This document shows positions 13,460 through 59,840 of a stretch of 64,000 nt of DNA, piece after piece. Position 1 is the stretch's first letter; each line of letters opens with the position of its first letter. The DNA is from Bacteroidales bacterium (GTDB taxonomy: Bacteria; Bacteroidota; Bacteroidia; Bacteroidales; Marinilabiliaceae), in assembly GCA_024401365.1 (NCBI GenBank), contig JAKSLE010000005.1, positions 62,001 through 126,000 on the forward strand, in the 5' to 3' direction. The position numbers and the translations under genes were made by a program. The notes beneath the pieces were generated by a model. That model was given only the letters and a program-made list of their open reading frames with translations. It was not told the DNA's origin and did no database searches.

Positions 13460-13500
13460 TAAAAAAATTGCGAGCAACGACTACCCTCCATATACACAGA
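13460..13500 (+). repeat. Dispersed A-tract/TGCGAGCAAC repeat, copy A
   Basis: T, seven A, T, then the core TGCGAGCAAC (13469-13478), followed by CTACCCTC and a TATA-containing tail. It lies between two divergent transcription units and is the only copy not near a gene 3' end. Confidence 0.8.
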
Positions 13501-13557
13501 AACTACTTAGCAAGTAAGAAATTTGATACCATCAGGATAATTCCAGTATTATTTTCT

Positions 13558-13565
13558 TATTTTTG
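13558..13565 (+). promoter_or_regulatory. -7 promoter element (TATTTTTG) for the GT4-ispG unit
   Basis: An exact TAnnTTTG match 25 bases before the ATG at 13591. No TTTG box stands at the proper distance upstream. Confidence 0.45.
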
Positions 13566-13590
13566 TGTTTCAATGAAATGAGTCGATAAC

Positions 13591-14742
13591 ATGCGCGTCC
13601 TATTCCTTCTTAGTCACTTCCTAGATGGCGGCATTGATACAATCCTCCTTCAGTACCTGAAAGGGTTGGTCAAAATGCCGGGGTTCACTGTATCCTTAGC
13701 TATCAGCGTAAGAATGAACGAACTGGAGGTCTTCCGAAATCAAATCCCTTCGGAGGTCAAAGTGGAGTACCTGGTCGACCAGCCTTACCTGTGCAACCCT
13801 CGCATAGCTAAACTCAAAGGCAAAATATCCGCAATTTCTAAATTGTGGGATAGTTCTATCCACAACATAATCAGACGCCGCAAAATACAGTCGGGCATCA
13901 ATAAGTTGGCTCAATCCCACGACCTCGTTGTCGATTTCGATGCTAGCCAGTCAGAATATTTGACTAATTGCCCAATACCTACTATCGCTTGGCTCCATTT
14001 CAGCATGCGTAAACTGAATGAAGTCGAACCGCTCAAAACACAGCAGATTATTAAACAACTTAGCCAATACACCAGAATAGTCACAATTTGCGAAGCAATG
14101 AGAAACGAGCTATCCGAAATGGCTCCTAACCTTGCTCCTAAATTGACTACCATATACAACCCTATCGACCAAACGTCTATAGTCCTTAAGTCAGAGGCGT
14201 CTATCGACTTCCCGGATCCTTATATCCTGACCATCTGCCGCCTCAATGAGGACCAGAAGGATGTGTCAACCTTAATCCGCGCCTACGCTCAGACGGATAT
14301 CGCCGAGAAACTTGTAATCATCGGAAAGGGCAAGGACGAGGAGATGCTTAAGAAATTGACGCGCGACCTGAAAATTGAGGACCGCGTCTTCTTCGCTGGA
14401 TTCCACGAGAACCCTTACCCGTGGATTCGACAGAGCAAGGCCTTCGTACTTAGCTCTAAATACGAGGGCTTCGGTATCGTACTGGTCGAGGCTATGTATC
14501 TGAATATCCCTGTAATTTCGTCCAACTGCCCCGTAGGTCCTGCCGAAATATTGGACAATGGCCGCTCTGGTATATTGGTTCCTCCTGGTGATTGCTCAGC
14601 CATGGCAAATGCTATCTCCCAAATCACCACCGACAACAACTTGCGAAGGGAACTGACCCAGAAAGCAGCAAAACGAGCCGACATATTCACCTTCGATAGC
14701 CAGCTGACTAAAATGATAAACTTATTCTCTTTCGCAGAATAG
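13591..14742 (+). CDS. Glycosyltransferase family 4
   Basis: A 383-residue GT-B glycosyltransferase. It starts MRVLFLLSHFLDGGIDTILL, a standard GT4 acceptor-domain opening, has TIYNPID at the inter-domain boundary, ILTICRLNEDQKDVSTL at the start of the donor domain, and SSKYEGFGIVLVEAM with the E-x7-E pair (Glu292, Glu300). Length and motif spacing are normal for the family, and it resembles enzymes that add galactose or N-acetylgalactosamine in capsule clusters. It is separated from ispG by 37 bases with no terminator or promoter seen, so the two are probably cotranscribed, although their functions need not be related. Confidence 0.9.
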   Translation: MRVLFLLSHFLDGGIDTILLQYLKGLVKMPGFTVSLAISVRMNELEVFRNQIPSEVKVEYLVDQPYLCNPRIAKLKGKISAISKLWDSSIHNIIRRRKIQSGINKLAQSHDLVVDFDASQSEYLTNCPIPTIAWLHFSMRKLNEVEPLKTQQIIKQLSQYTRIVTICEAMRNELSEMAPNLAPKLTTIYNPIDQTSIVLKSEASIDFPDPYILTICRLNEDQKDVSTLIRAYAQTDIAEKLVIIGKGKDEEMLKKLTRDLKIEDRVFFAGFHENPYPWIRQSKAFVLSSKYEGFGIVLVEAMYLNIPVISSNCPVGPAEILDNGRSGILVPPGDCSAMANAISQITTDNNLRRELTQKAAKRADIFTFDSQLTKMINLFSFAE

Positions 14743-14779
14743 ACATTTTTCAATCCCGATTTATTATCTACACTAAATA

Positions 14780-16570
14780 ATGAAACCATCAGACTATTGC
14801 GAAAACTTATTCGCATACAAACGCATAAACACTCGTAAAGCCCACGTAGGCAATCTTACTATAGGAGGTCTGGAACCTGTACGCGTACAGTCTATGACTA
14901 CCACAAATACCAACGACACTAAGGCGTCTGTCGAACAGGCTATACGTATCATCAATGCTGGTGGCGAGGTGGTCCGACTTACAACTCAAGGTCGCCCCGA
15001 GGCTCAGAATATGGAGAATATCTCTAAGTCTCTCCGCGCCCAGGGGTACACAACTCCTCTAGTAGCTGATGTACACTACAATCCAGCCGCAGCCGAAATA
15101 GCAGCTAAATATTCTGAAAAAGTCCGCATAAATCCAGGCAACTACACAGGTGGCGCTAAGCGTTTTGATGAGGCTGCCGATAATATGTCTCAGGAGGAGT
15201 GGATGTCACTCATCAAGGAGAAACTTACTCCTCTCGTAACTATATGCAAGGAGCATAATACCGCTCTGCGTATCGGCGTAAACCATGGCTCTTTGTCCGA
15301 TCGTATCATGGCTAAGTATGGCGACACCCCCGAGGGCATGGTGGAGTCGTGCATGGAGTACCTCGAGGCATTGGAAAACCTCGACTTCTTCAATATCGTC
15401 ATCAGTATCAAGGCGAGCAACACAAGAATAATGGTGTACACTGTACGCCAACTTATGGCCCGAATGAGAGCTAGAGGGTCCGTATACCCCCTCCATCTCG
15501 GAGTGACCGAGGCTGGTAGCGACGCCGAAGGCCGCATAAAATCCGCAGCTGGCATCGGCGCTCTTCTTACCGATGGCATAGGGGACACAATACGCGTCTC
15601 TCTCACCGAGGCCCCCGAGGCTGAAATTCCTGTAGCTAAACAGCTGGTCGACCATATTTCGGCAATGAACCAACCTTCAAATATCGATCCTGTCGACTCT
15701 TCTAGCTATTCTCCTTATTCTTATAGCCGCCGAGAGACAACTTCTGTCTTGAATATCGGAGGCATTAACGCCCCTGTAGTGGTATCTACTTCTAAGGGCT
15801 TCGGAGAATACTACCTCAACGGCAATTCATTGGTAGCTGCCGATGGCAAAATGTACGATTTCATTGATATTAAGGATCTTAACAAGGTTGGCATCAATGA
15901 AAATCCCGAAAAACCTCTGTTCGTTTTCTGCCAACTTCCTGATTTGAACGATAAATCTTTGGAGCTCTTGAAAAAGAACTCCAACATGGTTATCGTCACC
16001 TCAGCCCAAAACGTAAATAATCAAGCTCGCGAAATACGTGCCTTCATCCTTAAACTTAACGTAGCTTGCATCAACGCCCCAGTTATCGTCAAATATTCTA
16101 GCGACGAAAAGAATTTGGCGACGTTCCAACTGAAGGCTGCGACCGACTTGGGCTTGCTTTTTATCGATGGACTGGCTGATGGCATATTGCTCTCCGACAG
16201 TAATATAAGCAACGACAACCTCAGCGAGACTGCCTACTCTATCCTACAGGCAACTCAATCGCGCTTCTCAAAGGCCGAATTCATCTCTTGCCCTGGCTGC
16301 GGACGTACATTGTACGACCTCCAAAGTACTGTCCAACGTATCAAGGCTAAACTTGGACACCTCAAAGGCCTGAAAATCGGCGTAATGGGTTGTATAGTAA
16401 ATGGCATAGGCGAAATGGCAGATGCGCACTACGGATACGTGGGAGCCGGATATGATAAAATCTCTCTCTATCGTGGCAAGATTCTTGTAAAGAAAGAGTT
16501 AAATCAGGAGGAGGCCCTCGACCAATTAATCGATATTATCAAGCAAGATAACCTCTGGATTGAACCATAA
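14780..16570 (+). CDS. ispG: 4-hydroxy-3-methylbut-2-enyl diphosphate synthase (long form)
   Basis: IspG catalyses the penultimate step of the MEP pathway, converting methylerythritol cyclodiphosphate to HMBPP, and so supplies isoprenoids including the undecaprenyl carrier used in envelope glycan synthesis. The N-terminal TIM barrel is clear (VRVQSMTTTNTNDTKASVEQ, LVADVHYNP, RINPGNY, RIGVNHGSL). The C-terminal [4Fe-4S] domain has SCPGCGRTLYDL (near 503) and GVMGCIVNGIGEM (near 537), giving the three cysteine ligands, with the catalytic Glu in NGIGE. At 596 residues it is the long form with an inserted domain of about 200 residues between the two parts, known from Bacteroidota, Chlamydiae and plants. 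Typical proteobacterial IspG is about 370 residues. Confidence 0.96.
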   Translation: MKPSDYCENLFAYKRINTRKAHVGNLTIGGLEPVRVQSMTTTNTNDTKASVEQAIRIINAGGEVVRLTTQGRPEAQNMENISKSLRAQGYTTPLVADVHYNPAAAEIAAKYSEKVRINPGNYTGGAKRFDEAADNMSQEEWMSLIKEKLTPLVTICKEHNTALRIGVNHGSLSDRIMAKYGDTPEGMVESCMEYLEALENLDFFNIVISIKASNTRIMVYTVRQLMARMRARGSVYPLHLGVTEAGSDAEGRIKSAAGIGALLTDGIGDTIRVSLTEAPEAEIPVAKQLVDHISAMNQPSNIDPVDSSSYSPYSYSRRETTSVLNIGGINAPVVVSTSKGFGEYYLNGNSLVAADGKMYDFIDIKDLNKVGINENPEKPLFVFCQLPDLNDKSLELLKKNSNMVIVTSAQNVNNQAREIRAFILKLNVACINAPVIVKYSSDEKNLATFQLKAATDLGLLFIDGLADGILLSDSNISNDNLSETAYSILQATQSRFSKAEFISCPGCGRTLYDLQSTVQRIKAKLGHLKGLKIGVMGCIVNGIGEMADAHYGYVGAGYDKISLYRGKILVKKELNQEEALDQLIDIIKQDNLWIEP

Positions 16571-16602
16571 TTCGGTCCAAAAACGAAATAGATAAAATAT
16601 TT

Positions 16603-22185: not shown

Positions 22186-24528
22186 ATGAGTACAATTTCA
22201 TACGCTAAGCAGTTTGTTATAACACTACTTACTTCTTTTTGCATTAGTTGCACAGCTACCCCCAATACACTTACACCGTCAAACGATACCAACATCATCC
22301 ATCAGGTACACCCTGCCAACGAGCGCTTGTCTATGTACCTCCCTCTTATTAAAAACAAAAAGGTGGCTCTGGTAGTCAACCATACGTCTACCGTCGGCAA
22401 TACCCACCTCCTCGATACACTCCTTTCTCTGGGTGTCAACGTACAACGCGTTTTCGTACCTGAACATGGCTTCCGCGGCAATGCCGACGCTGGCCAGAAA
22501 ATAAATAATTCTGTCGACGAAAAAACTGGTATCTCTATCGTTAGCCTCTACGGCAACCATAAAAAACCTACCCCAGCAGATATGAAGGGTATCAATATGG
22601 TGATTTACGACTTGCAGGACGTGGGAACACGATTCTATACCTATATCTCTACTCTTCACTACATCATGGAGGCTTGCGCCGAAACTAATTCCCGCCCCGC
22701 CGATCAAGGTGGAAGGACCGAGGTGTTGGTACTCGACCGACCTAATCCTCAGGGGGATGTGGTCGACGGCCCAGTGCGAGAGGCTGATTGCAAGAGTTTC
22801 GTGGGTCTCGATCCATTACCTATATTATATGGCATGACCCCCGCCGAACTGGCATGTATGATAAATGGCGAAGGTTGGCTGGATAAAGGTGCCAAGTGTA
22901 TGCTGCGTATCATCCCTATGGAGGAGTATTCTCATAGCTGGAAAATAGCGCTGAATTGCCAACCGTCGCCTAACCTTCGCAACGACCATGCTATAGCTCT
23001 CTACCCTTCTTTGTGCTTGTTCGAGGGTACAAATGTATCAGTTGGCCGTGGCACAGATTTCCCTTTCGAGGTTATCGGCTCGCCTTATATTAAGGAGTCG
23101 GATTTTTCTTTTACACCTAAACCTTCCTACGGCGCTGCTTCTCCTGTGTTCAACGAAACTTTGTGCCGAGGCGTCGACTTGCGTAATAGCGATATCACTG
23201 GCTTCTCTCTCGAGTTTATCGCAGATATGCACAAACGTATAGGCGATTCCCTCTTCTGGTCTAAGTCTACTCGCACTTTCGATATCCTCGCTGGCTCTAC
23301 TTCTCTTCGCAAACAACTGAAACAGGGCCTCAGTACCGATTCTATCCGCCTTTCTTGGGAACCTCAATTGAATAAGTTCAAGGCGCAGAGAAAACGCTAC
23401 CTGATATACGATCGCCAGAAAATAACCGATCGTAAACCTATTACCGACTGGAACGCAGCCATGCATTCTCATTGGGTGGATAGCATCTATAGCTCTTTGT
23501 CTCTTCGCGAACGTATAGCTCAAATGGTTTGGGTTACTTTGGATGTCAATTTTACCGAGAAGAATATCCAGAAAATCGAATCGGAGGTTAAATCTCTTGG
23601 CGTGGGCGGCATACTAATCCTTAAGGCTACCCCTAGCGATTGCTTGAATTTCACAGAGCGAATGAATAGAGCTTCTAAAGTCCCTCTGCTTTTCGCCGCT
23701 GACGCAGAGAATGGCTTGGGCTTCAAGTTCATCAACGTGGATAAATTCCCTTATTTTAAGGAACTGGGTGAGAGGGGCGACTCTTCTTTCGTGCGCTTAA
23801 TAGGCGAACGCACTGCCGAACAGATGCTGGCTTGTGGCTTGAATATCAATTTTTCTCCCGATGTCGATGTAAATACTAATCCTAAAAACCCTATAATAGG
23901 TAAACGCGCTTTCGGAGATAACGTGGATGTCGTCTCTAAAATGGGCGAGGCTTACATCCGCGGACTCCAGTCTCGAGGCGTATGCGCCGTAATAAAGCAT
24001 TTCCCAGGCCATGGCGATACAAGTACCGACTCCCACTTGGCTTTGCCAGTAGTAGCTCACGATAGTACTAGATTGGCAAGCGTCGAACTGGCTCCGTTCC
24101 AGCATTGCATCAATAATGGCGCAATGGGCGTAATGAGCGGACACCTGGTAGTGCCAGCTCTCGACCCTAGCAAACGCGCCGCTAGCTTGTCGTCTGCTAT
24201 CCTAAAGGGTGTACTGCGAGAGAAAATGAATTTCAACGGAATAATTGTTACCGATGCTATAAACATGGCGGGCGCTCGAAAGTCTGCTGGCGATGACATA
24301 GCCGAAATGTTGGCTATCAAGGCTGGTAACGACGTCGTGGAGTTTTCTCTCAACGCCGAACGCGCTGTCTCAGCAACTGAACAGGCAGTTCTTTCTGGCT
24401 CAATACCCGAAGCACAAATCGAAACTTCCGTACGCCGAATCTTGGCCGTAAAGGAGTGGTCTAAAGATAGCCGCTCTCAATCTTTCGGTTACCCAGAAGC
24501 AATAGTCAACTTGCCTATCACTAGATAA
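22186..24528 (+). CDS. Fusion of NamZ-like exo-muramidase (DUF1343, GH171) and NagZ-like GH3 beta-N-acetylglucosaminidase
   Basis: A 780-residue exported protein with a hydrophobic N-terminus ending in cysteines (TSFCISC), so a possible lipoprotein. Residues about 40-410 are a NamZ/DUF1343 domain: KKVALVVNHTS, FVPEHGFRGNADAG with the candidate catalytic Glu93, YDLQDVGTRFYTYISTL, VLDRPNPQG and FEGTNVSVGRGTDFPFE. Residues about 425-770 are a GH3 N-terminal domain of NagZ type: KHFPGHGDTSTDSH near 603, the His/Asp dyad loop that is diagnostic for NagZ-like enzymes, and IIVTDAINMAG with the nucleophile Asp690. NamZ releases MurNAc from non-reducing ends and NagZ-type enzymes release GlcNAc, so one chain could strip peptidoglycan glycan ends alternately. 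The gene stands alone, with its own promoter and a tandem operator-like repeat. Confidence 0.9.
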   Translation: MSTISYAKQFVITLLTSFCISCTATPNTLTPSNDTNIIHQVHPANERLSMYLPLIKNKKVALVVNHTSTVGNTHLLDTLLSLGVNVQRVFVPEHGFRGNADAGQKINNSVDEKTGISIVSLYGNHKKPTPADMKGINMVIYDLQDVGTRFYTYISTLHYIMEACAETNSRPADQGGRTEVLVLDRPNPQGDVVDGPVREADCKSFVGLDPLPILYGMTPAELACMINGEGWLDKGAKCMLRIIPMEEYSHSWKIALNCQPSPNLRNDHAIALYPSLCLFEGTNVSVGRGTDFPFEVIGSPYIKESDFSFTPKPSYGAASPVFNETLCRGVDLRNSDITGFSLEFIADMHKRIGDSLFWSKSTRTFDILAGSTSLRKQLKQGLSTDSIRLSWEPQLNKFKAQRKRYLIYDRQKITDRKPITDWNAAMHSHWVDSIYSSLSLRERIAQMVWVTLDVNFTEKNIQKIESEVKSLGVGGILILKATPSDCLNFTERMNRASKVPLLFAADAENGLGFKFINVDKFPYFKELGERGDSSFVRLIGERTAEQMLACGLNINFSPDVDVNTNPKNPIIGKRAFGDNVDVVSKMGEAYIRGLQSRGVCAVIKHFPGHGDTSTDSHLALPVVAHDSTRLASVELAPFQHCINNGAMGVMSGHLVVPALDPSKRAASLSSAILKGVLREKMNFNGIIVTDAINMAGARKSAGDDIAEMLAIKAGNDVVEFSLNAERAVSATEQAVLSGSIPEAQIETSVRRILAVKEWSKDSRSQSFGYPEAIVNLPITR

Positions 24529-24556: not shown

Positions 24557-24600
24557 TAAAAAAACTGCGAGCAACAAGGAGGCTCTCCGTATACAGAGAG
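24557..24600 (+). repeat. Dispersed A-tract/TGCGAGCAAC repeat, copy B
   Basis: T, seven A, C, core TGCGAGCAAC (24566-24575), AAGG, then an imperfect hairpin CTCTC/GAGAG (24583-24587 with 24596-24600) around GTATAC. It starts about 30 bases after the NamZ-NagZ stop in a convergent gap. Confidence 0.85.
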
Positions 24601-24647
24601 TAACTTCCAACTATACTATAACGACAAATATAGTGGTCCTGAAATAT

Positions 24648-27990: not shown

Positions 27991-30486
27991 ATGAACAAGG
28001 AAAAATTATCTGATTTTTGGCAACGTATATGGCCTCATTTATTAGTGGCCCTCTCTTTCGTTGTCCTTACTTGCGCTTACTTCATCCCAGTACTCCAAGG
28101 TAAAGAAATCCGCCAGGGCGACGACATCAACGCTAAGGGCGCCGCTCAGGAATTGGTCCAGTACCAAAAGGAGTCAGGTGAATTCGCTCAATGGACCGAC
28201 TCTATGTTCGGCGGTATGCCTGCTTACCAAATCCGTAGCGACTCTTCCCAAAACGTATATAAGTTCTTTAATAAGGTAGCACGACTGAACCTCCCATATA
28301 CTACTATGGGTATCCTCTTCATGTACCTCTTGGGCTTCTACCTCTTGCTGGTGTCCATGAATTTCAAACCTTGGATGGCTATGGTGGGCTCTATCGCTTT
28401 CGCTTTCGGCTCTTATAATATTATTATCATCATAGCTGGACATATTACTAAGGCCTACGCTATAGCTATAATGCCAATGGTCCTCGCCGGTATAATCCTT
28501 ATTTACCAAAAACGATGGATAATAGGCGGCTTATATACTATGGTAGCATTGGGCATGGAACTGGCTTACAACCACGTCCAGATTACTTACTACCTTGGAT
28601 TGGCAGTATTGGTCATGATCATCGCCGAACTGATATTCGCCATAAAGGCAAAAAATATCAAGGATTTCGCCATATCTTGCATAGTCCTTATTGGAGCATC
28701 CCTCTTGGCTGTCCTCCCTGGCACTACTAATATGTGGTCTACCTACGAGTATAGTAAGTTCTCTACCCGCGGTCCTTCCGAGATTACTTCTACTACAGAG
28801 GAACGCCCTCACGAGGGACTCGACAAGGATTATGCCTTGGCTTGGAGCTACGGCATCCACGAAACGCCTACTTTACTTATACCTAATATAGTGGGCGGCG
28901 CAAGCGAACTTATAGGATACGACAACAAGGCCGTACAGCAACTGGATCCTCAAATCCGCGATGCAGTGGCTCAACAGATGCCTAAATACTGGGGCGGACG
29001 TAGTTTTACTTCTGGCCCAGTTTACGCCGGCGCCATTATCTGCTTCTTGTTCTTCTTGGGCGCTTTCTTCTACGAGGGTAAACATAAATGGTGGCTTATC
29101 GCAGCTACAATATTGTCCATCTTCTTGGCTTGGGGCAAAAACTTTATGCCTTTTACCGACTTGATGTTCTACTATTTCCCAATGTACAATAAATTCCGTA
29201 CCGTGGAAATGGCTCTCGTAATAGCATCTATGACCATACCTCTCCTGGGCTTCTTGGGCTTGAAGGAGTTGTTCGAAAACCCTGAACGCATAAAGTACGA
29301 AACGGGTAAGTTCTTCGGAGCTTTGGGTCTCACCGCTGGCGTAGCTCTCATCATCGCTATAGCTCCTACCCTCTTCTACGATTTCTTGTCTGAACAGGAA
29401 ATGGCTATGTTCGACCAGATGAAGGCTGGCGAAAATGCCTTGGCTTACTCTTTATTCGAACAGGGCGTAGTGGACGCTCGTATCGAACTGACTAGAATGG
29501 ATGCCTGGAGATCGGTATTCTTTATCTTCTTGGCTTCTTCTGCTTTGTGGTTCTTCGCCGTCGGCAAAATAAATTCTAAAATTTCTCTCGCTACCCTCGG
29601 ATTATTGATCCTCATCGATATGTGGGGCGTGGATAAGAGATATCTTTCCGACCAGCATTTTTCTGCTAAGTCTTTGGGCAGGACTGAATTCCCTATCTCT
29701 AAGGCCGATAAATTGATAATGGCCGATAAGGAGCCTCACCGCGTTATCTCTCTCTACCGCGATCCTTTCAACGAGGTGGCTACTAGCTATTTCCACCATT
29801 CAGTGGGCGGATACCACGGAGCTAAACTTCGCCGCTACCAGGATGTAATCGACTATTATATCCGCAACGAATGGAACAATATCCAGCAGTGCCTGAGAAA
29901 ACAGGATATCGATGCCGTCAAAACGGAACTTAGCTTGTCTACCGTATTGAATATGTTGAATACTAAGTATTTAATATATAATCCCGAGGCCGAACCTATC
30001 CTCAACCCCTACGCTCAGGGCGCCGCATGGTTCGTATCCAAGGTTTCCCCTGCCGCTTCTCCTGATGAGGCTATCGCAGCCTTGGGAAATATCAATACCC
30101 GCGAAGTGGCTGTCATAGAGAATTGTAACACAAATTCTTTACAGACTTCTGCCGATTCTTCTGCCGTAATACGTCAGATATCTTATACACCAGAGGAGAT
30201 AGTGTATAATAGTTCGTCCAAGTCTGCCCAGGTAGCCGTATTCAGCGAAATATACTACTCTGCAGGTTGGAAGGCTTATATAGATGGCAAGGAGACAGAA
30301 ATTCTCCACGCCGACTACATCCTCCGCGCTCTGCAGATCCCTGCAGGTAATCATGAAATCCGTTTTACTTTCCACCCTAAGTCTTATACCGTGGGCAAAA
30401 CAGTCTCTATGGCTGGTTCCATATTGGCAGTGCTGCTCTTAGTTGGTGGAGTTTTTTATAACGTCAAAAAATCTAAGAAACAATGA
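27991..30486 (+). CDS. YfhO-family multi-pass membrane protein
   Basis: An 831-residue inner-membrane protein with about 12-14 membrane helices and a soluble C-terminal strand-rich domain from about residue 620. Family signs are the opening helix with VLTCAYFIPVLQGKEIRQGDD, the segment SFGGMPAYQI-like (MFGGMPAYQI), the periplasmic loop after helix 1, and the end AGWKAYIDGKETEIL, as in GT-C-like YfhO proteins. YfhO in Gram-positives takes part in glycosylating teichoic acids; in Bacteroidota the role is unknown, but GT-C relatives use polyprenyl-phosphate sugars. The ATG at 27991 is preferred over a GTG one codon earlier. Its stop overlaps the next gene's ATG by four bases. Confidence 0.87.
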   Translation: MNKEKLSDFWQRIWPHLLVALSFVVLTCAYFIPVLQGKEIRQGDDINAKGAAQELVQYQKESGEFAQWTDSMFGGMPAYQIRSDSSQNVYKFFNKVARLNLPYTTMGILFMYLLGFYLLLVSMNFKPWMAMVGSIAFAFGSYNIIIIIAGHITKAYAIAIMPMVLAGIILIYQKRWIIGGLYTMVALGMELAYNHVQITYYLGLAVLVMIIAELIFAIKAKNIKDFAISCIVLIGASLLAVLPGTTNMWSTYEYSKFSTRGPSEITSTTEERPHEGLDKDYALAWSYGIHETPTLLIPNIVGGASELIGYDNKAVQQLDPQIRDAVAQQMPKYWGGRSFTSGPVYAGAIICFLFFLGAFFYEGKHKWWLIAATILSIFLAWGKNFMPFTDLMFYYFPMYNKFRTVEMALVIASMTIPLLGFLGLKELFENPERIKYETGKFFGALGLTAGVALIIAIAPTLFYDFLSEQEMAMFDQMKAGENALAYSLFEQGVVDARIELTRMDAWRSVFFIFLASSALWFFAVGKINSKISLATLGLLILIDMWGVDKRYLSDQHFSAKSLGRTEFPISKADKLIMADKEPHRVISLYRDPFNEVATSYFHHSVGGYHGAKLRRYQDVIDYYIRNEWNNIQQCLRKQDIDAVKTELSLSTVLNMLNTKYLIYNPEAEPILNPYAQGAAWFVSKVSPAASPDEAIAALGNINTREVAVIENCNTNSLQTSADSSAVIRQISYTPEEIVYNSSSKSAQVAVFSEIYYSAGWKAYIDGKETEILHADYILRALQIPAGNHEIRFTFHPKSYTVGKTVSMAGSILAVLLLVGGVFYNVKKSKKQ

Positions 30487-32096
30487 GAAACAGTAGACCC
30501 TTGACCCCTACCGAGGTCACACAGCTTGAACGTCGTGGCAATATCGCTACCGACTGGGATTTGGTGGTAGTATCTGAGCAGGATTTCTCAGCTCTTAATA
30601 TACGTAATAATTATTTCCGAGGCCGTGCCTACCTGGGAGCTAACGTGGAAATCATCGGATCTACAATTTCTGGTTACGAAATCCTCGACAACGCTTCCGT
30701 ACTTAATAGTACCCTCGAAGCCGAGGATAATGTCATCCATATCCTCAACGAGGCTGGTAACCGTGTTATCTATTGTACTCCCGGACTTACTCCTCAAATC
30801 GCATACATCGAGGCGTTCCATACATATAAACCTGGATTGCAGGACGCGTTCAAGAAAATGTATGCCGAGGATGATCTCATGACTATCAGTCCTAACGCTA
30901 CCGTCATGAAGGGGTGTAACATACACAATTCTTTCGTAGGTCACGATTCTGTATTGGAGGCTTTTACTGCTGATAATTGCTTTATCGCCGACAATTGTCA
31001 CCTCGCTAACGGCGAGGGTGTGTCTGCCTTCTGCGGTCCTATGACCGTAAGTCACCATAAATCTACCCTACTCATAGCTAGCCTCTACTCTTTCTATAAC
31101 GCAGGTAGTAATACTAATTCGTCTAACCACAACTACCGCCTCGGCCCTATCCATCAGGCTATATACAACCGTGGCGTAAAAACTGGTTCAGGAAGCTACG
31201 TACTCCAACCTGCTCATGTGGGCGATTTTACAATGGTCATCGGCCACCATACCGGTCACCCTAATACTTCTAAATTGCCTTTCTCTTACCTCATCGAAAA
31301 GTATGGCGCTAGCTTTATCTTCCCCGCACAGAACTTCAAGGCTATCGGCACATGGCGCGATTTGGCTAAATGGCCTTCTCGATATAAGTTGTCTAACGAC
31401 GCCCTCGAGCCTGATTTCGCTATAAATAGACCAACGTACGTCAGCAAGTTGTATGCAGCTGCCGACCTCCTCGAGTCTCTCCTGGCTAAGGCTAAGGGCG
31501 ATACCGTTATCTACGAGGGATGCCGTATACAGAAAATAATGATGAAGCCTGCTATCGAGACTTACCGTAGCATCGCTCAGGCTCTCCTCATGGCTCGCTA
31601 TATGCAGGACCGCAAGGAGTGCGACGCTTTCGCTGGCGTTAAGGGTAATTCGAAAAACTTACAGTGGGTCGACCTCGCCGGCTCTTTCTTCAATAAGGTG
31701 GTCATCGATAGCGTGGAGCAGAACATCATCGATAATAAGTATAAATGCGTCAGCAAAATTACCGACGAACTTTTCTTCCTCCAGCAGACTAAGCGCCACA
31801 ATATCGTAAAAGCTATCGTCTCTATGATGTCCGATTACCTCGGTATCGACGATACCCATAATACAGATAAAGTGAACGCCGAAATAGCTAAGGCAAAGCA
31901 GACTTTCGAAGTCCTCTTGGATACTCTCCAGTTCGATGCTAAACGCGAATCTGCCGGCCGTATGTCTGTCGGATACGGACTCGATGGTTCCGAGGAGGAT
32001 TGCATGGCCGACTTCAACGCTGTTCACCCTACACTCGACAAGGATACAGAGAGCGCCGTGAAGATTATCCGCGAATATATCGACCTCCTCTCTTAA
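30483..32096 (+). CDS. DUF4954 family protein with left-handed beta-helix-like repeats
   Basis: A 537-residue cytoplasmic protein. Residues about 45-190 contain hexapeptide-like turns (NYFRGRAYLGANVEIIGSTI, then ISPNATVMKGCNIHNSFVGH and NCFIADNCHL) as in nucleotidyl- and acyltransferase beta-helices. GDFTMVIGHHTGHPNTSKLPFS follows, and the last half is helical with no known motif. The family is abundant in Bacteroidota and its biochemical role is not established; the beta-helix and His-rich loop suggest a sugar-nucleotide or acyl-group enzyme. ATGA overlap with the YfhO gene indicates translational coupling, which links the two functions. A terminator follows 25 bases after the stop. Confidence 0.83.
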   Translation: MRNSRPLTPTEVTQLERRGNIATDWDLVVVSEQDFSALNIRNNYFRGRAYLGANVEIIGSTISGYEILDNASVLNSTLEAEDNVIHILNEAGNRVIYCTPGLTPQIAYIEAFHTYKPGLQDAFKKMYAEDDLMTISPNATVMKGCNIHNSFVGHDSVLEAFTADNCFIADNCHLANGEGVSAFCGPMTVSHHKSTLLIASLYSFYNAGSNTNSSNHNYRLGPIHQAIYNRGVKTGSGSYVLQPAHVGDFTMVIGHHTGHPNTSKLPFSYLIEKYGASFIFPAQNFKAIGTWRDLAKWPSRYKLSNDALEPDFAINRPTYVSKLYAAADLLESLLAKAKGDTVIYEGCRIQKIMMKPAIETYRSIAQALLMARYMQDRKECDAFAGVKGNSKNLQWVDLAGSFFNKVVIDSVEQNIIDNKYKCVSKITDELFFLQQTKRHNIVKAIVSMMSDYLGIDDTHNTDKVNAEIAKAKQTFEVLLDTLQFDAKRESAGRMSVGYGLDGSEEDCMADFNAVHPTLDKDTESAVKIIREYIDLLS

Positions 32097-32185: not shown

Positions 32186-32222
32186 TAAAAAAATTGCGAG
32201 CAACAAGGTATCTCTATATACT
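32186..32222 (+). repeat. Dispersed A-tract/TGCGAGCAAC repeat, copy C1
   Basis: T, seven A, T, core TGCGAGCAAC (32195-32204), AAGG, then TCTCTATATACTC. It is followed by a second copy 44 bases further on. Confidence 0.85.
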
Positions 32223-32231
32223 CACAAAGTA

Positions 32232-32280
32232 TAAAAACTGCGAGCAACAACTACCCTCTCTTATATCAGAGAGTATACAG
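32232..32280 (+). repeat. Dispersed A-tract/TGCGAGCAAC repeat, copy C2
   Basis: T, five A, C, core TGCGAGCAAC (32239-32248), AACTACCC, then a perfect 6-bp hairpin CTCTCT/AGAGAG (32256-32261 with 32268-32273) and TATAC. It is in tandem with copy C1. Confidence 0.85.
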
Positions 32281-32296
32281 CCACATGCCTCAAACG

Positions 32297-33517
32297 TCAC
32301 ACTATATCCCCTGGCCTAGGAGAGAATTCTGCTTGTACCTTCTGCGCAAATGCTTGCGCTATCTCTATCTCAGAGAAGCGTAGATAGTTCATGCCTATAT
32401 TGAAAACTATATCTACTTCAGCCTTCTTTATCCTCCTGTCTACTATCGACAACGAAATCACATAGTCAAGCAACGAAAGCCTGAATCCAGCATCTAACTC
32501 TAATATGTGATTGGTAGCATCTTCAAATACTTCTACCAAGTCCATCTCACTGTCTATTATCTCTTGCAGATACTCCCTAGGGAACAACTGGAAGGTCGAT
32601 AACCTGTCTACTATGACGTTGTACTCTTCTTCCGTTATCACATCGTCTACATTGGTCATCAACAGCCCGGCTGTGGCCACAAACCTCGCCAAATAGTAGT
32701 CAATAGGCGTCGATGGCATCTTGGCTAGCAAATCAAATAGCTCGTCCATCTTCTTGCCTACCCTCTTGCCAGCCATCTGGTCCGCAAATAGACAAATGGC
32801 TTCTATTCGTATAGGATTGACCGGATGGTCCTCAAAACTGTTGTAGCCATCGTCACTCTTGAAAAACTCTAGCCTCTCTTTATTGGTTGATAAAAGGGTC
32901 TTGATATCCATGTCTATCTGGTCAATGTTCAACCCCGTCGTCAACTTGAAAAAGGCACTCACACATTGATCCAAATTCTTGCAGGCTATATACCCATACC
33001 TGTCGGCTTCTAGCTCGGCCAACTGCGACCATAATTGTACCTTGTACTTCAGCGCAACTGGCATAATGTCATCTTCTGGATAAACAAAGGATACAAGGTT
33101 CTTTAAGTCAGTATCTTGATTTATCAAATGCCCAATCTCATGCCCAATGACAAATTTCAATTCGTCATCACTCATCAATTGCAATAACCCCGAATTGATA
33201 TTTATCACATTGGCATTGCCTTCTTTATGCCTCTTTACCGTCCACGCATTCACTGTCGTGTCACTGGTAATATAGAAGTCTATATCTTCTTCAAACCCTA
33301 ATTCTGCTTTTACGCCATAGAAAATATCATAATATCGCTTCATCAACTTCTGGTCAACCTTGAACGATTGCCCCTCAAGTAGATTCCTTAAATAGTCAGG
33401 CGTGTTGTTAATCCCGGCTTTCTCCATTATGAAACTTACCGTCTCCCCTTGCAAAGCATCATAAATCTTCTTCCTGAGTATAGTTTCTATCTCTATTCTG
33501 ATCTTGTCTTTTTTCAT
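32297..33517 (-). CDS. M48-type zinc metallopeptidase with C-terminal TerB-like region
   Basis: A 406-residue protein with the zinc site HEIGH (His126, Glu127, His130) and the downstream ELEAD (Glu168, Asp172), as in M48 peptidases. NVININSGLLQLMSDDELKF immediately before is the usual lead-in helix. No signal peptide or membrane helix is seen, so it is probably cytoplasmic, unlike HtpX or YfgC. From about residue 290 the sequence (ITEEEYNVIVDRLSTFQLFP, then DRRIKKAEVDIVFNIGMNYL) resembles a TerB-like all-helical domain with acidic loops. Substrate unknown. It stands alone with a good promoter, and repeats C1/C2 lie just beyond its stop. Confidence 0.83.
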   Translation of the reverse strand: MKKDKIRIEIETILRKKIYDALQGETVSFIMEKAGINNTPDYLRNLLEGQSFKVDQKLMKRYYDIFYGVKAELGFEEDIDFYITSDTTVNAWTVKRHKEGNANVININSGLLQLMSDDELKFVIGHEIGHLINQDTDLKNLVSFVYPEDDIMPVALKYKVQLWSQLAELEADRYGYIACKNLDQCVSAFFKLTTGLNIDQIDMDIKTLLSTNKERLEFFKSDDGYNSFEDHPVNPIRIEAICLFADQMAGKRVGKKMDELFDLLAKMPSTPIDYYLARFVATAGLLMTNVDDVITEEEYNVIVDRLSTFQLFPREYLQEIIDSEMDLVEVFEDATNHILELDAGFRLSLLDYVISLSIVDRRIKKAEVDIVFNIGMNYLRFSEIEIAQAFAQKVQAEFSPRPGDIV

Positions 33518-38034: not shown

Positions 38035-39555
38035 TTAATGCTTAAAGTGACGTGAACCCGAGAAGACAAGCGCCATACCGTTCTTTGTACAGTACTCAAT
38101 TGTCTCATTGTCTCTAACCGAACCGCCTGGCTCAATTACAGCATCGATACCCTCCGCATGCGCAATCTCTACACAATCGCCAAATGGGAAGAAGGCATCC
38201 GAAGCCAACGCAGCACCCTTGAGGTCAAAGTTGAATGCATGTGCCTTAGCTATCGCATGACGAAGCGAATCTACACGGCTCGTTTGGCCTGTACCACTGC
38301 CAAGCAACTGCTTGTTCTTTGCCAATACAATGGCATTCGACTTTGTATGCTTAACAATCTTGTTCGCAAAGAGCAAATCTTCAATCTCAGCTGCAGTAGC
38401 AGGACGAGCACCCTTATTCTCCAAATCTGCCGCTGTCTCTGTCTTGAAGTCTCTGTCCTGAACAAGCAAGCCGTTCAAACATGTACGTACCGTACGTGAC
38501 GACAATTCCTTCGACTTCTGAACAAGTATAATTCTGTTCTTCTTCTGCTTCAATACCTCAAGCGCCTCTTCTGAGTACGATGGTGCTATCACAACCTCAA
38601 AGAAAATCTTGTTCATCTCTTCTGCTGTCTCTTTGTCTACTGGCTTATTGCAAACTACAATACCACCAAACGCCGATACAGGGTCACCTGCCAATGCATC
38701 TGTCCATGCCTGAAGCAGTGTGCCACGCGATGCCAAACCACACGCATTGTTGTGCTTCAAGATGGCAACCGTTGTCTCATCAAACTCGTTGATCAAACCT
38801 ACAGCAGCATCAATGTCCAAAAGGTTGTTATACGAAATCTCCTTGCCGTGCAACTGCTCAAACATCGCCTCAAAGTCGCCGAAGAATACACCGTTCTGGT
38901 GTGGGTTCTCTCCGTAACGGAGCGACTTAGATGCGTCTGCAGTAATGCGGAGACGTGCATGGTCTTTGTCAAAGTAACTGAAGATAGCGCTGTCATAATG
39001 GCTCGATACAGCAAACGCATCCATAGCCAAATCCATACGGTCTTCCTCGTCTGTCATGCCCTGCTTCTCATAAAGCAACTTGGCAAGCTTAGAGTACTGC
39101 GCCTGCGATGGAATGATAACTACGTCCTTGTAGTTCTTTGCAGCAGCACGGATAAGCGAAATACCACCTATGTCTATCTTCTCAATAATATCCTCATGTG
39201 CAGCACCACTTGCTACTGTCGCCTCAAATGGATAGAGGTCAACTATCACAAGGTCTATCTCTGGAATATCATATTGCGCGGTCTGTACCTTGTCACCCGG
39301 ATTGTCACGACGTGCCAATATACCACCAAATACACCCGGATGCAAAGTCTTGACACGACCGCCAAGAATTGATGGGTAGCCAGTAAGTTTCTCTACTGGT
39401 GTACATGAAATACCCAGACCTTCAATGAATGTCTGTGTACCGCCAGTGGAAATAATCTTAACTCCCAACGAGTTAAGTGTTCTTACAATGTCATCAAGTC
39501 CGTCCTTATAAAATACGGAGATGAGAGCTGTCTTAATCTGCTTAGGGTTGCTCAT
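38035..39555 (-). CDS. purH: Bifunctional AICAR transformylase / IMP cyclohydrolase
   Basis: A 506-residue cytoplasmic enzyme for the last two steps of purine synthesis. The N-terminal IMP cyclohydrolase (methylglyoxal-synthase-like) domain has ALISVFYKDGL, ISTGGTQTFIEGLGI and the phosphate-binding LHPGVFGGILAR. The C-terminal AICAR transformylase has SLRYGENPHQNGVFF, ILKHNNACGLA with the catalytic Lys-His pair, DPVSAFGGIVVCN and a final SDAFFPFGDCVE. Length is normal. It has its own -7 box. Placement just before mreB is the usual Bacteroidales order. Confidence 0.97.
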   Translation of the reverse strand: MSNPKQIKTALISVFYKDGLDDIVRTLNSLGVKIISTGGTQTFIEGLGISCTPVEKLTGYPSILGGRVKTLHPGVFGGILARRDNPGDKVQTAQYDIPEIDLVIVDLYPFEATVASGAAHEDIIEKIDIGGISLIRAAAKNYKDVVIIPSQAQYSKLAKLLYEKQGMTDEEDRMDLAMDAFAVSSHYDSAIFSYFDKDHARLRITADASKSLRYGENPHQNGVFFGDFEAMFEQLHGKEISYNNLLDIDAAVGLINEFDETTVAILKHNNACGLASRGTLLQAWTDALAGDPVSAFGGIVVCNKPVDKETAEEMNKIFFEVVIAPSYSEEALEVLKQKKNRIILVQKSKELSSRTVRTCLNGLLVQDRDFKTETAADLENKGARPATAAEIEDLLFANKIVKHTKSNAIVLAKNKQLLGSGTGQTSRVDSLRHAIAKAHAFNFDLKGAALASDAFFPFGDCVEIAHAEGIDAVIEPGGSVRDNETIEYCTKNGMALVFSGSRHFKH

Positions 39556-39678: not shown

Positions 39679-39732
39679 TAAAAAAAACTGCGAGCAACAT
39701 ATATGTTCCCTCATATCAGCGTATACTCTCCG
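39679..39732 (+). repeat. Dispersed A-tract/TGCGAGCAAC repeat, copy D
   Basis: T, eight A, C, core TGCGAGCAAC (39689-39698), then ATATGTTCCCTCATATCAG and GTATACTCTC. It lies in the gap between lepA (3' end) and purH (5' end), both on the minus strand. Confidence 0.8.
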
Positions 39733-39781
39733 ACTACCTCCCAACAGCCTTCTAACACCCTTGATACACAGCCAACAAAAC

Positions 39782-39840: not shown

Positions 39841-41634
39841 CTATTCGCCATCCAACTTCAATACCGCCAGGAACGCCTTCTGTGGCACCTCAACGTTACC
39901 TACTTGCTTCATTCTCTTCTTTCCTTCTTTCTGCTTCTCAAGCAACTTCCTCTTTCGCGAAACGTCACCACCATAACACTTCGCCAATACGTCTTTTCTT
40001 ACCTGCTTGATAGTCTCTCGGGCAATAATCTTGGCTCCAATGGCTGCCTGAACAGCAACGTCATATTGCTGTCTTGGTATCAGCTCTTTCAACCTGACAC
40101 ACATCTTGCGTCCAATTACTACCGCATTATCATAGAATGTCAATGTCGACAAAGCGTCCACCTTCTCTCCATTGAGCAAAATGTCCATCTTGGCCAAATT
40201 ACTTGCCCTATATCCTATCGAGTAGTAATCAAATGAAGCATAACCTCTAGAAATAGACTTCAATTTATCATAAAAGTCAAACACAATCTCGGCCAATGGC
40301 ATGTCATACTCAAGTTCTACTCGGTCACTTGTCAGATAGGTCTGCTTTACAAGGTTACCGCGCTTCGATAGACATAGTGTCATAATCGGACCGATATACT
40401 CGGACTTGGTAATAACTTGTGCCTTGATATATGGCTCTTCTACATGGTCTATTACCGTAGGCTCTGGCAAGGCCGAAGGCGTGTGGACTTCTATGCACTC
40501 TCCTTTCTTCGTAAATGCCTTGTAGGGCACGTTGGGCACAGTGGTGATAACGGCTTGGTTGAACTCTCGGTCAAGTCGCTCTTGAACAATCTCCATGTGA
40601 AGCAACCCCAAGAAACCGCAACGGAAACCAAATCCAAGCGCAAGGGAACTCTCGGGCTGGAACGTGAGCGACGCATCGTTCAACTGCAACTTCTCTATCG
40701 CGGCTCTCAAATCTTCATAGTCATCTGTATCAATAGGATAAATACCGGCAAATACCATAGGCTTCACCTCCTCAAAACCGTCAATGGCTTTCTCACATGG
40801 CGCATCTCTATGGGTAATGGTATCTCCTACTTTTACCTCGGAGCTTGTCTTGATACCTGATATAATGTAACCTACATCTCCGGTCCTGAGCTCTTTCCTA
40901 GGCTCCATATCAAGTCTCAATACTCCTATCTCATCAGCATCATATTCTTTGCCTGTGGCAACGAACTTTACCATCTCTCCTTGCTTCATGACACCATTGA
41001 CTACCTTGAAGTAGGCAACAATACCACGGAACGAGTTGAATACTGAGTCAAAAATCAAACATTGTAGCGGCGCTTCTGGATCTCCCGTTGGCGCAGGTAT
41101 CCTATTGATAATGGCTTCCAATATCTCTGGCACACCTTCTCCTGTCTTGCCCGATGCTCGTATAATCTCTTCTCGCTTGCATCCTACAAGCTCTATTATC
41201 TGATCCTCAACTTCTTCTGGCATGGCATTCGGCATGTCCATCTTGTTGAGTACTGGAATAATCTCCAAATCATGATTGATAGCCTGATAAAGGTTGGAAA
41301 TCGTCTGCGCTTGTATGCCTTGAGTAGCATCTACTACAAGCAACGCTCCCTCACAGGCAGCAATCGATCGCGATACCTCATATGAAAAGTCTACGTGACC
41401 GGGAGTGTCAATAAGGTTGAGTACGTATTTCTCTCCATTGAGCACATAGTCCATCTGGATGGCATGACTCTTAATAGTAATGCCTCGCTCCCTCTCCAAA
41501 TCCATGTCATCAAGTACCTGAGCTTGCATGTCCTTGCCTATAACTGTCTTGGTAAACTCCAAGAGTCGGTCAGCAAGCGTACTCTTTCCATGGTCAATGT
41601 GCGCTATAATGCAGAAATTGCGTATATTCTTCAT
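39841..41634 (-). CDS. lepA: Elongation factor 4 (LepA), ribosome-associated GTPase
   Basis: A 597-residue translational GTPase. G1 is [15 protein letters not shown] (residues 11-25), the switch region has [15 protein letters not shown]3 is DTPGHVDF, G4 is NKMDMP. It lacks EF-G domain IV and has the LepA-specific C-terminal domain ([20 protein letters not shown], followed by a basic tail). It acts on stalled or initiating ribosomes. Length is standard. It follows rodA on the same strand but has its own full-consensus promoter in the 51-base gap. Confidence 0.97.
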
Positions 41635-48370: not shown

Positions 48371-48742
48371 CTATTTAAGTTTCGACATAAACTTATCTAT
48401 ATTCACGACGAAGCGCTCATGCGATCCCTCGCCTATGAGTGTTTCCCCTTGGTATGCGGCGACAGAGAAAGACAATTTTCTTCCGTCGACTGCTATCAAC
48501 TCTGCCTCGGCTCTAACCTCAGCACCCACAGGTGAAGCTTTGACGTGAGAAACATTCATAAGAGTTCCCACTGTAGTATCCGTATCAGCCATCTCGTCGG
48601 CCACACATTTCATAGCGGCCTCCTCCATCAAGGCTATCATCCTTGGAGTAGCCAACACCTGCAATGAACCTGAACCCACAGCCAGAGCTGTATCCTTATC
48701 AGCGACAGTTAGACTTGCTGTATACCTTTTACCTATTTCCAT
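48371..48742 (-). CDS. Hotdog-fold thioesterase (fluoroacetyl-CoA thioesterase-like)
   Basis: A 123-residue single-domain hotdog protein. EIGKRYTASLTVADKDTALA at the start, LATPRMIALMEEAAMKCV (the long central helix with Glu), TTVGTLMNVSHVKASPVG and the strand AAYQGETLIGEGSHERFVV match the FlK/thioesterase type, which hydrolyses small acyl-CoAs. The substrate is unknown. The true start is ATG at 48742. An in-frame ATG at 48802 would add 20 residues encoded by the dispersed repeat and the stop region of the upstream gene, and these do not fit the family. Confidence 0.83.
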   Translation of the reverse strand: MEIGKRYTASLTVADKDTALAVGSGSLQVLATPRMIALMEEAAMKCVADEMADTDTTVGTLMNVSHVKASPVGAEVRAEAELIAVDGRKLSFSVAAYQGETLIGEGSHERFVVNIDKFMSKLK

Positions 48743-48754
48743 ATATGTTTCTAG

Positions 48755-48791
48755 TCTATTAGTAATACCTTGTTGCTCGCAGTTTTTTTTA
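48755..48791 (-). repeat. Dispersed A-tract/TGCGAGCAAC repeat, copy E (minus orientation)
   Basis: Read on the minus strand: T, eight A, C, core TGCGAGCAAC (48781-48772), AAGG, TATTAC. It fills most of the 60-base gap between the DUF3108 gene and the thioesterase gene. Its tail lacks the CTCTC/GAGAG hairpin. Confidence 0.8.
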
Positions 48792-48802
48792 TTTGCGCAC
48801 AT

Positions 48803-57808: not shown

Positions 57809-57823
57809 AACAAAACGAGCGTA

Positions 57824-59008
57824 TTAGAGTTTGAAACGTTTCATATATGTCTCCATATCCTTGTCTCCACGACCAGATACTGTGACTACTACATTATCTG
57901 TCGACTTGAAGTCGAGTTTCTTCAATCCTGCCAACGCATGTGCACTCTCAAGCGCAGGAATAATGCCCTCAAGTCGTGTCAACTCAAATGCAGCATCCAA
58001 TGCCTCTTGGTCCGTAGCAGCAAGTACCGTAGCACGACCGCTTTCCGCAAGGAACGAATGAAGAGGACCAACTCCCGGATAGTCCAAACCAGCCGAAATA
58101 GAGTATGGCTCTATTATCTGCCCATCGTCTGTCTGCATCAACATCGTACGCGAACCATGAATGATTCCTTCTGTACCTCGCGCAATCGACGCCGCTGTGT
58201 CAGGTGTGTCAAGGCCTAATCCTGCCGCCTCAATGGCTACCAATCTTACCGTCTCATCATCAAGAAAGTTGTAGAACGAACCAGCAGCATTCGATCCACC
58301 ACCTATACAAGCTAATACATAGTCTGGCAAATCCTTACCGGTCTGCTCCCTGAATTGCCATTTCGTCTCTTCTGAAATAATCGACTGCAACTTGGCTACC
58401 ATATCAGGATATGGATGTGGACCTACTACCGATCCAATAATGTAAAATGTATCTTCTGGATTCGAAATCCAGTCTCTCAACGCCTCGTTGGTAGCATCTT
58501 TCAATGTGCGGTTTCCTGTCATGGCAGGAATAACTTCCGCTCCAAGCATCTTCATACGCGCTACATTTGGAGCTTGACGCTGAATGTCAACTTCTCCCAT
58601 ATATACCGCACATTTCATTCCCATAAGAGCACAAACCGTAGCCGTAGCAACTCCATGCTGCCCAGCTCCTGTCTCTGCTATAATACGTGTCTTACCCATC
58701 TGCTTGGCAATGAGTATCTGACCAATAGCATTGTTTATCTTGTGCGCTCCTGTATGCGCACAGTCTTCACGCTTAAGGAATATATTGGTGCCGTACGCTG
58801 CCGACATGCGCTTTGCATATGTCAATGGAGTAGGACGTCCTACATACTCCTTGAGCAATTGCTTGTACTCTTTTTGAAACGATTCAGAATTTAGAATCTC
58901 TTGATATACCTTCTTAAGGTTATCAACGTTTGGATACAACATTTCTGGTACAAACTGACCTCCGAAACGCCCGTAGTATCCGTTCGAGTTTACTGAATAT
59001 TTTGACAT
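57824..59008 (-). CDS. trpB: Tryptophan synthase beta chain
   Basis: A 394-residue PLP enzyme that joins indole and serine to tryptophan. The PLP lysine is Lys90 in [17 protein letters not shown]. The phosphate loop is [11 protein letters not shown], and [11 protein letters not shown] is the usual start. Substrate residue region [20 protein letters not shown] is intact. It lies between trpF (20-base gap) and trpA (15-base gap). Confidence 0.97.
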
Positions 59009-59028
59009 TGTTCTTGTGTAATCTTTTA

Positions 59029-59649
59029 TTAGTTTCCTCTAATCTTGACCAATGACTCACGGAGGAGGTCAAAATCCTTTATACCTGGCGCCGACTCAAA
59101 CTTACTGTTCAAATCTATTGCATAAGCTCCACAGGTAGCTGCCTCAACAATATTGTCTGGCCCTATACCTCCGGCAACAAACCAAGGCTTGCGTATCGGT
59201 TGTCGCAGGATAAGTTGCCAATCGAACCCACGTCCGCTTCCGCCGTACGTGGGTGACTTAGTATCAAAAAGGAAACAATCTGTACTGTCCGTATAGTCCG
59301 CTACGTTCTCAAAGTCGCGCGCCGACTCAATATGAAAAGCTTTTATAACCTCAAAGCCCGATTCCTTCAACGCTCCACATAAGCGCGGCGACTCGTTGCC
59401 ATGAAGTTGTATGGTCTGAAGGCCATATTGCGCAGCTGTCTGCCTAATCTCCGTCTCCGTAGAATTGACAAATAACCCTACTCGCTTGACATTGTCAGGT
59501 ATAACGCTGAGCATATCTGGCTTGAGCCTGCCTACCACATACCTTGGCGACTTGGGATAGAATATAAACCCAAGGTAATCTGGTTCTAAAAACAGACACT
59601 TGCAGATATTGTCAATATCTGTCATGCCACATATCTTTACCTTTACCAT
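59029..59649 (-). CDS. trpF: Phosphoribosylanthranilate isomerase
   Basis: A 206-residue TIM-barrel isomerase for the third committed step of tryptophan synthesis. Catalytic Cys7 ([10 protein letters not shown]) and Asp129 ([19 protein letters not shown]) are present, as is [12 protein letters not shown]. It is first in the unit trpF-trpB-trpA. The usual partners trpE, trpG, trpD and trpC are not in this window. Confidence 0.95.
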
Positions 59650-59671
59650 AATTTGTGCTTGTTCAGTAGTG

Positions 59672-59678
59672 CAAAGTA
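59672..59678 (-). promoter_or_regulatory. Possible promoter element (TACTTTG) of trpFBA
   Basis: On the minus strand TACTTTG followed by C lies 22 bases before the trpF ATG. It is one base short of the TAnnTTTG spacing, so it is only a candidate. Confidence 0.3.
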
Positions 59679-59788
59679 CGTGAAAAAAAACGGTAAAAAC
59701 AATTACGAAAAAGACGTAAATCCATGTCGCTTCCTTCTCAACACCATCTCTCGCCTCTTCTCGCTAACGTTTTCTACCGCTCTTTTAA

Positions 59789-59840
59789 TAAAAAAACTGC
59801 GAGCAACTACTACTCTCTCTTATATCAGCAACTACCCTCA
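59789..59840 (+). repeat. Dispersed A-tract/TGCGAGCAAC repeat, copy F
   Basis: T, seven A, C, core TGCGAGCAAC (59798-59807), then CTCTCTCTTATATCAG as in copy C2 and CTACCCTC (59832-59839). The tail overlaps the stop codon and last five codons or so of the minus-strand gene ending at 59825. Confidence 0.8.

Follow-up and report, generated by a model that had tools for sequence, protein, structure and literature searches.

A polar array of 11-bp units and an accompanying multicopy protein family in Bacteroidales genomes

Arrays in the analyzed region

The window, i.e., the whole stretch of DNA analyzed here, comprises 64,000 nucleotides of a contig from a Bacteroidales draft genome. It contains seven copies of a 10-base core, six on the plus strand and one on the minus strand, at the positions listed in a first-pass annotation, and each is preceded by T, five to eight A and then C or T, as described there. 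When one mismatch was allowed, ten core matches were present in the window, whereas 100 shuffles averaged 3.3 and never exceeded 9.

The seven copies form six elements. Element 1 (13460..13523, plus strand) is composed of TA7T, the core TGCGAGCAAC at 13469–13478 and about four units of 11 bp, and it sits between divergent genes at 11633–13363 (minus) and 13591–14742 (plus). Element 2 (24557..24619, plus; core 24566–24575) is located about 37 bp 3′ of a NamZ/GH3 gene at 22186–24528 (plus). Element 3 (32186..32293, plus) has tandem cores at 32195 and 32239, which are 44 bp (four units) apart, and is flanked by genes at 30483–32096 (plus) and 32297–33517 (minus). Element 4 (39680..39753, plus; core 39689–39698) is flanked by the AICARFT/IMPCHase gene purH at 38035–39555 (minus) and lepA at 39841–41634 (minus); in a related genome, G010 (L106, L047), the purH orthologue also has an element upstream, which points the other way relative to that gene. 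Element 5 (48727..48791, minus; core 48772–48781) extends to lower coordinates and overlaps the start of the thioesterase-like ORF 48371–48802 as called. The FlK domain of this ORF begins at residue 33, after the array, and the start codon was probably called too early, which would explain the overlap. Element 6 (59789..59851, plus; core 59798–59807) is flanked by genes at 59029–59649 (minus) and 59825–62107 (minus).

Genome-wide occurrence and array structure

The genome containing the window (G000) is a draft of 3.05 Mb in 76 contigs; about one third of the genome was read directly, with ORFs taken from simple calls. The core is far above chance genome-wide, with 120 exact copies against 5 for the reversed pattern, and the proposal of a dedicated dispersed element is strongly supported. 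The copies are split 60/60 between the strands, and the base before the core is C or T in 119 of them.

The siting suggested by the window is not general. A preference for gene 3′ ends is not seen among the 70 intergenic loci with both neighbors known, where the four possible gene arrangements account for 20, 20, 16 and 14 loci. Nor are the elements restricted to intergenic DNA: by a simple ORF call, 33 of 106 loci run into ORFs of 70 aa or more, although some of these ORFs are surely spurious, and in hrpB and an MMPL-type gene the array is inside the reading frame.

The array plan consists of an A- or T-tract, the core and degenerate 11-bp units (about 3–6 or so), for a total of about 60–90 bp; tract and core sometimes restart in register within the same array. 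Conservation begins about 13 bp before the core, and the nature of the tract can differ between species, since one orthologous site in a long ORF has T in G000 (L222) and A in the related genome G008 (L054). The core, which is only weakly palindromic, itself counts as one of the units and varies: 40 copies have TGCGAGCAA and then AC or GC, and TACGAGCAAC, TGCGATGAAC, TGCGAGTAAC and TGCGAGCAAAC also occur. Per-base information recurs with a period of 11 and fades over about 6–7 units, and among periods 7–15 the best was 11 (chi2/df 6.2, next 1.8). A second core in the same locus is on the same strand in 43 of 44 pairs, and 41 of these 43 tandem pairs are separated by an exact multiple of 11 bp. 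The units are not copies of one another, as 82 different first units were present in 101 arrays, and the aligned copies presented no terminal inverted repeats.

The CTCTC/GAGAG hairpin noted in the first-pass annotation could not be extended to the whole set. In a coupling analysis of 101 arrays (5 of the 106 have no tract and were left out), the 45 strongest couplings join near neighbors, with no long-range pair among them, and Rfam at the gathering score returned 0 matches in the window; a hairpin or RNA structure was rejected. The observation is larger than that annotation stated, and includes 11-bp units, other core variants, orientation by strand skew and a partner gene.

Orientation and spacing

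The orientation of the arrays follows strand skew and is independent of genes. In the 106 loci of G000, the majority coding strand is the same as that of the array in 53 and opposite in 53. GC skew at third codon positions, measured on the array strand, was −0.19 for same-strand genes and −0.18 for other-strand genes in G000. Loci that offered few third positions were excluded; in the others, the strand of the array is C-rich at these positions in 92/101 loci of G000, 15/15 of G010, 20/30 of G013 and 12/20 of G008. Neighboring loci share direction in 57 of 75 cases (p 7e-6), and in contig C23, where the skew sign changes three times, the arrays largely switch too. The leading strand was assumed to be G-rich; dnaA is located on contig C7, and no change of skew sign occurs in the 60 kb of this contig that were read.

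This independence disfavors the RNA processing site considered earlier, as well as a terminator or Rho site, which was rejected for the same reason. Rho utilization prefers C-rich, G-poor RNA, and the G-poor strand and regular 11-nt C spacing of the G000 arrays would suit an element that acts at the RNA level, e.g., a Rho-utilization site or a terminator. With gene direction indifferent, and with the arrays of G013 and G008 far less C-rich than those of G000, we regard this explanation as very improbable.

At six loci the array of a relative points the other way relative to its gene; at five of these, C-richness of the array strand is common to both species, the exception being L117. Of the five, L106/L047 and L073 are firm. 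In one of the two species the skew is weaker than 0.1 at L274, L083 and L131, and the genes on either side of L083 map to two places in G000. In 16 same-direction comparisons, two presented a positive skew value in one species. These few loci suggest that arrays may be re-oriented after inversion. In G000 there is a weak drift of the skew of the array itself with the local skew (rho 0.27, P 0.003), and this drift was not significant in the other three array-rich genomes. A purely compositional orientation was therefore rejected, but part of the polarity could be compositional drift, since the polarity is weak and arrays are less C-rich in G013 and G008.

Using exact cores genome-wide, and looser cores only as listed, close neighbors were too few (5 of 80 gaps below 3 kb against 14.4 expected, P 0.0006) and gaps of 6 to 13 kb were in excess (40 against 20 expected), while the overall spread of gaps was not significantly different from random (CV 0.88 against 1.02, P 0.08). 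Density is uneven, with 29 loose matches in 225 kb of C23 and 5, 6 and 4 in the 140–167 kb read of C56, C67 and C75; a few of all these matches may be chance. The base before the core tends to be alike in neighboring loci, both in G000 (84/103 against 57.6 expected) and in the listed part of the 83 places of G013 (30/36 against 22.3, P 0.002). The last core bases are also alike in neighbors in the full list (85/103 against 63.7 expected), but not significantly in a smaller fetched set (77/87 against 73.9). Three sites without a tract were left out of the spacing and label tests.

Dialects in related genomes

Arrays are abundant in four of 15 genomes of the genus, and each of the four has its own unit dialect. 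The looser pattern AAAAAYTNCGANNAAC occurs 130 times in G000, 245 in G013, 96 in G008 and 72 in G010, and 0 or 1 times in the other 11. Among the matches listed from public genomes, the core is repeated in Bacteroidales MAGs of horse faeces (JAKSLD, JAKSLC) and in Bacteroidia bacterium S22M_St_71 (JAUNDI), and many single matches belong to unrelated taxa.

Phase-specific models were built from the four carriers, and with them 144 of 199 arrays were assigned to the genome they came from. The figure for the orthologous loci listed was 25 of 32, which indicates that arrays change while core and place can persist. In 27 arrays of G008, without those containing N or cut short, AAGGTCTTCCC accounts for 7 and CGAGTGTAGCC for 11 of 81 early units. 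Four loci of this genome (L116, L117, L122 and L138) present near-identical arrays, each with a similar inverted repeat behind it (ACGGAGC..GCTCCGT or a variant), which suggests a recent spread of one composite.

Species dialects, dispersal, tolerance inside genes and few short gaps are features that an uptake or self-recognition signal for DNA transfer would also have, as with the DUS dialects. However, the uptake-like signal suggested earlier now fits less well: carrier genomes have about 70–250 copies (72–245 by the looser pattern) instead of thousands, and the arrays are about 60–90 bp long, oriented by strand skew and tightly linked to the promoters of one family, described below. We consider this explanation improbable.

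At the G010 loci looked at, the three distinct N gaps (L286 2695–2705, L306 1479–1489 and L097 306–371) are inside an array or within about 60 bp of it, as if arrays broke assemblies, perhaps through strain variation. Some contigs terminate close to an element, at a distance of about 300 bp or less, namely C6, C31, C35, C38 and C76 in G000 and C1, C32, C39 and C42 in G013.

The accompanying protein family

Small basic proteins, mostly of about 150–175 aa, are encoded beside arrays. A profile built from 11 members and searched across genomes gave 25 matches in G000, 29 in G013, 17 in G008 and 10 in G010, which are the four array-rich genomes; some genes gave two pieces, and the 25 matches of G000 come to 20 genes. 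Weak matches were obtained in G005 (7), G006 (7) and G011 (1), and none in the other 8 genomes of the genus or in 46 genomes of other genera. The window itself holds no match, and the nearest ones on its contig are C45:135905–136243 and C45:159432–159914.

An array is located within 260 bp upstream of 24 of the 26 family genes examined, and in 21 of those 24 it points away from the gene. Among 567 background ORFs, taken from G000 only, counting arrays in either direction and including a few family genes, 29 have one. Two of the genes (L166, L176) came from stretches chosen because they contained an element, and leaving both out gives 23 of 24; L397, counted as without array, has TGCGAGCAAA behind a broken A-tract. 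The polar 11-bp array and the multicopy protein family thus form a matched pair, in step across genomes and at promoters. Core variants follow paralogue groups in part. TGCGAGTAAC precedes one group in two species (L375, L382 and L376 of G008) and TGCGAGCAAAC precedes another (L388, L389, L394, L377, L383 and L395), but L385 and L396 are preceded by TGCGAGTAA too, and L403 and L378 by TGCGAGCAAAC.

Traces of the association extend to non-carriers. In G005 and G006, where 9 of the 14 matches were examined, 7 of the 9 distant homologues have CACGTACTTTC or a near form upstream, and eight arrays of this kind, six at genes and two elsewhere, favor period 11 (p 6e-6; period 10, p 4e-4). The single homologue of G011 has no such upstream core. 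AAGTACGTGTT occurs three times in 400 kb of G006, once at a family gene and twice without one in the same 20-kb stretch, so the dispersal of this second kind of array is at most slight in the 400-kb sample; it was absent from 400 kb of G003 and 826 kb of G000.

The members tried matched no Pfam, NCBIfam or PHROG family. An AlphaFold2 model (mean pLDDT 86.5) predicts a helix, a beta hairpin and further helices, and structure searches gave no clear relative of this fold, so the putative DNA-binding role rests on charge and genomic context.

Other candidate partners were rejected, as neither reverse transcriptases nor RAYT proteins are carrier-specific. Y1_Tnp (PF01797) was over the cut-off in one of four carriers and in 3 of 11 non-carriers, and three RAYT-like ORFs that were met had no element within the same fetched stretch. 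A reverse transcriptase in G000 (L326 1240–2608, contig C33) is beside an N-rich segment ending GFSVRPV; by eye, this one and that of G013 (L325, C10) look like ordinary diversity-generating retroelements. In G008 (L324 1123–3429, C195), a reverse transcriptase that looks retron- or Abi-like by eye has in its vicinity a RAYT-like protein containing MPNHVHAIV; this protein was absent from the list given by the Y1_Tnp search.

Insertion and turnover

The hrpB gene presents 11 extra residues in G000 and G013, in frame, when compared with ten non-carriers. They correspond to 33 nt, or three units, and tract and core overlie the codons preceding the insertion; in G010, core and array are at the same place, interrupted by an assembly gap. 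No target duplication was seen at this insertion, for which the species are too diverged to give exact junctions. In the MMPL-type gene, tract and core are present in all four carriers, with the G010 array within a gap. Core and tract persist in coding genes of 3–4 species at about 65–82% protein identity. When loci of relatives were placed on the fetched part of G000, 10 of 26 had an element nearby and 16 did not, which indicates both persistence and turnover. At one place, two cores are located between genes of G010, and in G000 the matches to these genes end 2 bp from each other.

Some family genes occur as near-copies. L389 and L394 (93% over 653 bp) resemble each other over a segment that starts about four units outside the core and ends with the last codon, and they differ on either side. 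L375 and L382 (87%) share the segment between core and last codon, and in L377 and L383 the likeness continues for about 140 bp after the last codon. Promoter and coding sequence are thus shared, and the likeness breaks off at the array on one side and at the stop codon, or near it, on the other. This looks mobile and would suit a cassette that has the array as one of its ends. Neither inverted ends nor target duplications were seen in the near-copies, the duplications having been sought unsystematically. Besides these, an 827-bp segment containing array, promoter and gene is 95% identical between L388 (G000:C75) and L389 (G013:C15), from species that are otherwise more diverged, which suggests a recent transfer.

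Differences in the array and in the promoter, respectively, were 11/44 and 0/84 for L389/L394, 9/44 and 6/95 for L377/L383, and 22/44 and 18/73 for L375/L382. In two of three independent comparisons, the arrays therefore diverged clearly more quickly than the promoter next to them; the exception is the two-species pair L388/L389, whose arrays are identical (0/44 against 2/85). Fast change, together with the weak skew drift of G000, is what a passive minisatellite shaped by mutation and base composition would show. Such an origin is the least probable of those considered, and hardly credible to us: the units keep the 11-bp register without being mutual copies, the core is kept in several species, and the arrays are linked to a protein family.

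A new class of small mobile element is a more serious alternative, which we hold to be possible, if doubtful. It would be an autonomous cassette of about 650 bp (array, promoter and one ORF), with solo arrays as its non-autonomous copies, and it would insert at A/T tracts with a bias set by the replication fork, avoiding sites near existing copies. The hrpB insertion, the two G010 cores between genes almost adjacent in G000, the 16 placed loci without element there, the 10–29 protein matches per carrier genome, the limits of likeness between L389 and L394 and the repeated G008 units all argue for it. On the other side, no inverted ends, target duplications (in an unsystematic search) or nuclease motif were seen, and the queries tried gave no phage, viral-contig or plasmid relative. 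The persistence of core and tract in coding genes of several species, and the assignment of most shared-site arrays to the dialect of their own genome, also count against it.

A possible DNA-marking system

We tentatively favor the array and its partner as a clade-specific two-part DNA-marking system over the new mobile element, and the two may be combined. Of the natures first suggested for the repeat, both the MITE-like element and the binding site for a nucleoid or partition protein survive, now tied to one specific protein family. In the marking system, the array would be headed by a stiff A- or T-tract. The partner protein would recognize the core, with subfamilies that may partly match the core variants, and could spread away from it in steps of 11 bp, one for each protomer. 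Bound at its own promoters, it may repress or tune its own genes. On the dispersed arrays, it would mark or organize the chromosome, in a direction set by replication. In favor of this reading are the 11-bp lattice, the co-occurrence with the protein family, the arrays at its promoters, the polarity, the scarcity of short gaps and the persistence of arrays in hrpB and the MMPL-type gene. Against it are the lack of a clear relative of the predicted fold, the element near only 10 of the 26 placed loci, the weak polarity in G013 and G008, the overall spread of gaps and the mobile look of the near-copies.

A more specific version, which we think rather unlikely, is a chromosome-wide polar address system, with putative nucleation on the core, polymerization in 11-bp steps and regional labels. 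Its sites would avoid close spacing and would be re-oriented after inversions to follow the replication fork, and the labels would be given by the base before the core and perhaps by its last bases.

Literature searches found no description of the element, and the core-string matches listed were unrelated by title. As far as these limited searches reach, which also returned a paper on genomic repeats of P. gingivalis, the element is undescribed and either reading is new in kind. Under the marking reading, bacteria would have an array arranged on a fixed lattice of 11 bp, with species dialects, strand polarity and a multicopy partner that has no known relatives, and loop anchoring, strand sensing or domain identity would become directly testable. 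Under the mobile reading, the class would be autonomous and very small, with short solo copies that go into genes in frame.

Relation to known systems

REP elements are dispersed, short and tied to RAYT transposases; here there is no palindromic hairpin unit, and Y1_Tnp does not follow the carriers. DUS and USS are tolerated in genes, and DUS comprise thousands of short copies with the pilin receptor ComP. To our knowledge, they are not linked to promoters of a multicopy family. The species dialects of DUS (PMC3630211) are a point of likeness, as is dispersal, but 120 exact cores in 3.05 Mb do not amount to a very high copy number.

KOPS are polar motifs biased to one replication strand. AIMS are polar 8-bp leading-strand sequences enriched toward the terminus (PMC5993296). 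The arrays resemble both in a strand bias that, as judged by strand skew in draft genomes and more weakly in G013 and G008, follows replication, and differ from them as long arrays with a clade-specific protein.

The BrickBuilt MITE of Porphyromonas gingivalis has 23-nt repeats, leader and tail ends with inverted repeats and 19 copies, all intergenic (PMC4596501, as far as the account used here goes). It shares with our element the order Bacteroidales, dispersal and tandem units with a distinct leader, and no partner protein is described in that part of the account. Here, in contrast, the units are of 11 bp and degenerate, no inverted ends were seen, and there are polarity and a partner family.

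ParR/parC is an autoregulated system in which, as here, a small DNA-binding protein meets tandem direct repeats of fixed length, although binding by our partner is putative and the units in the 11-bp register are degenerate. In plasmid R1, parC has two sets of five tandem repeats, and a 22-bp fragment with iterons 1 and 2 served as binding control (PMC4949242). ParR is a ribbon-helix-helix protein and works with the ParM motor. The partner model, with its helix, beta hairpin and helices, has no clear structural match. And whereas parC is one site per plasmid, the arrays occupy more than 100 chromosomal sites, with degenerate units behind a fixed head.
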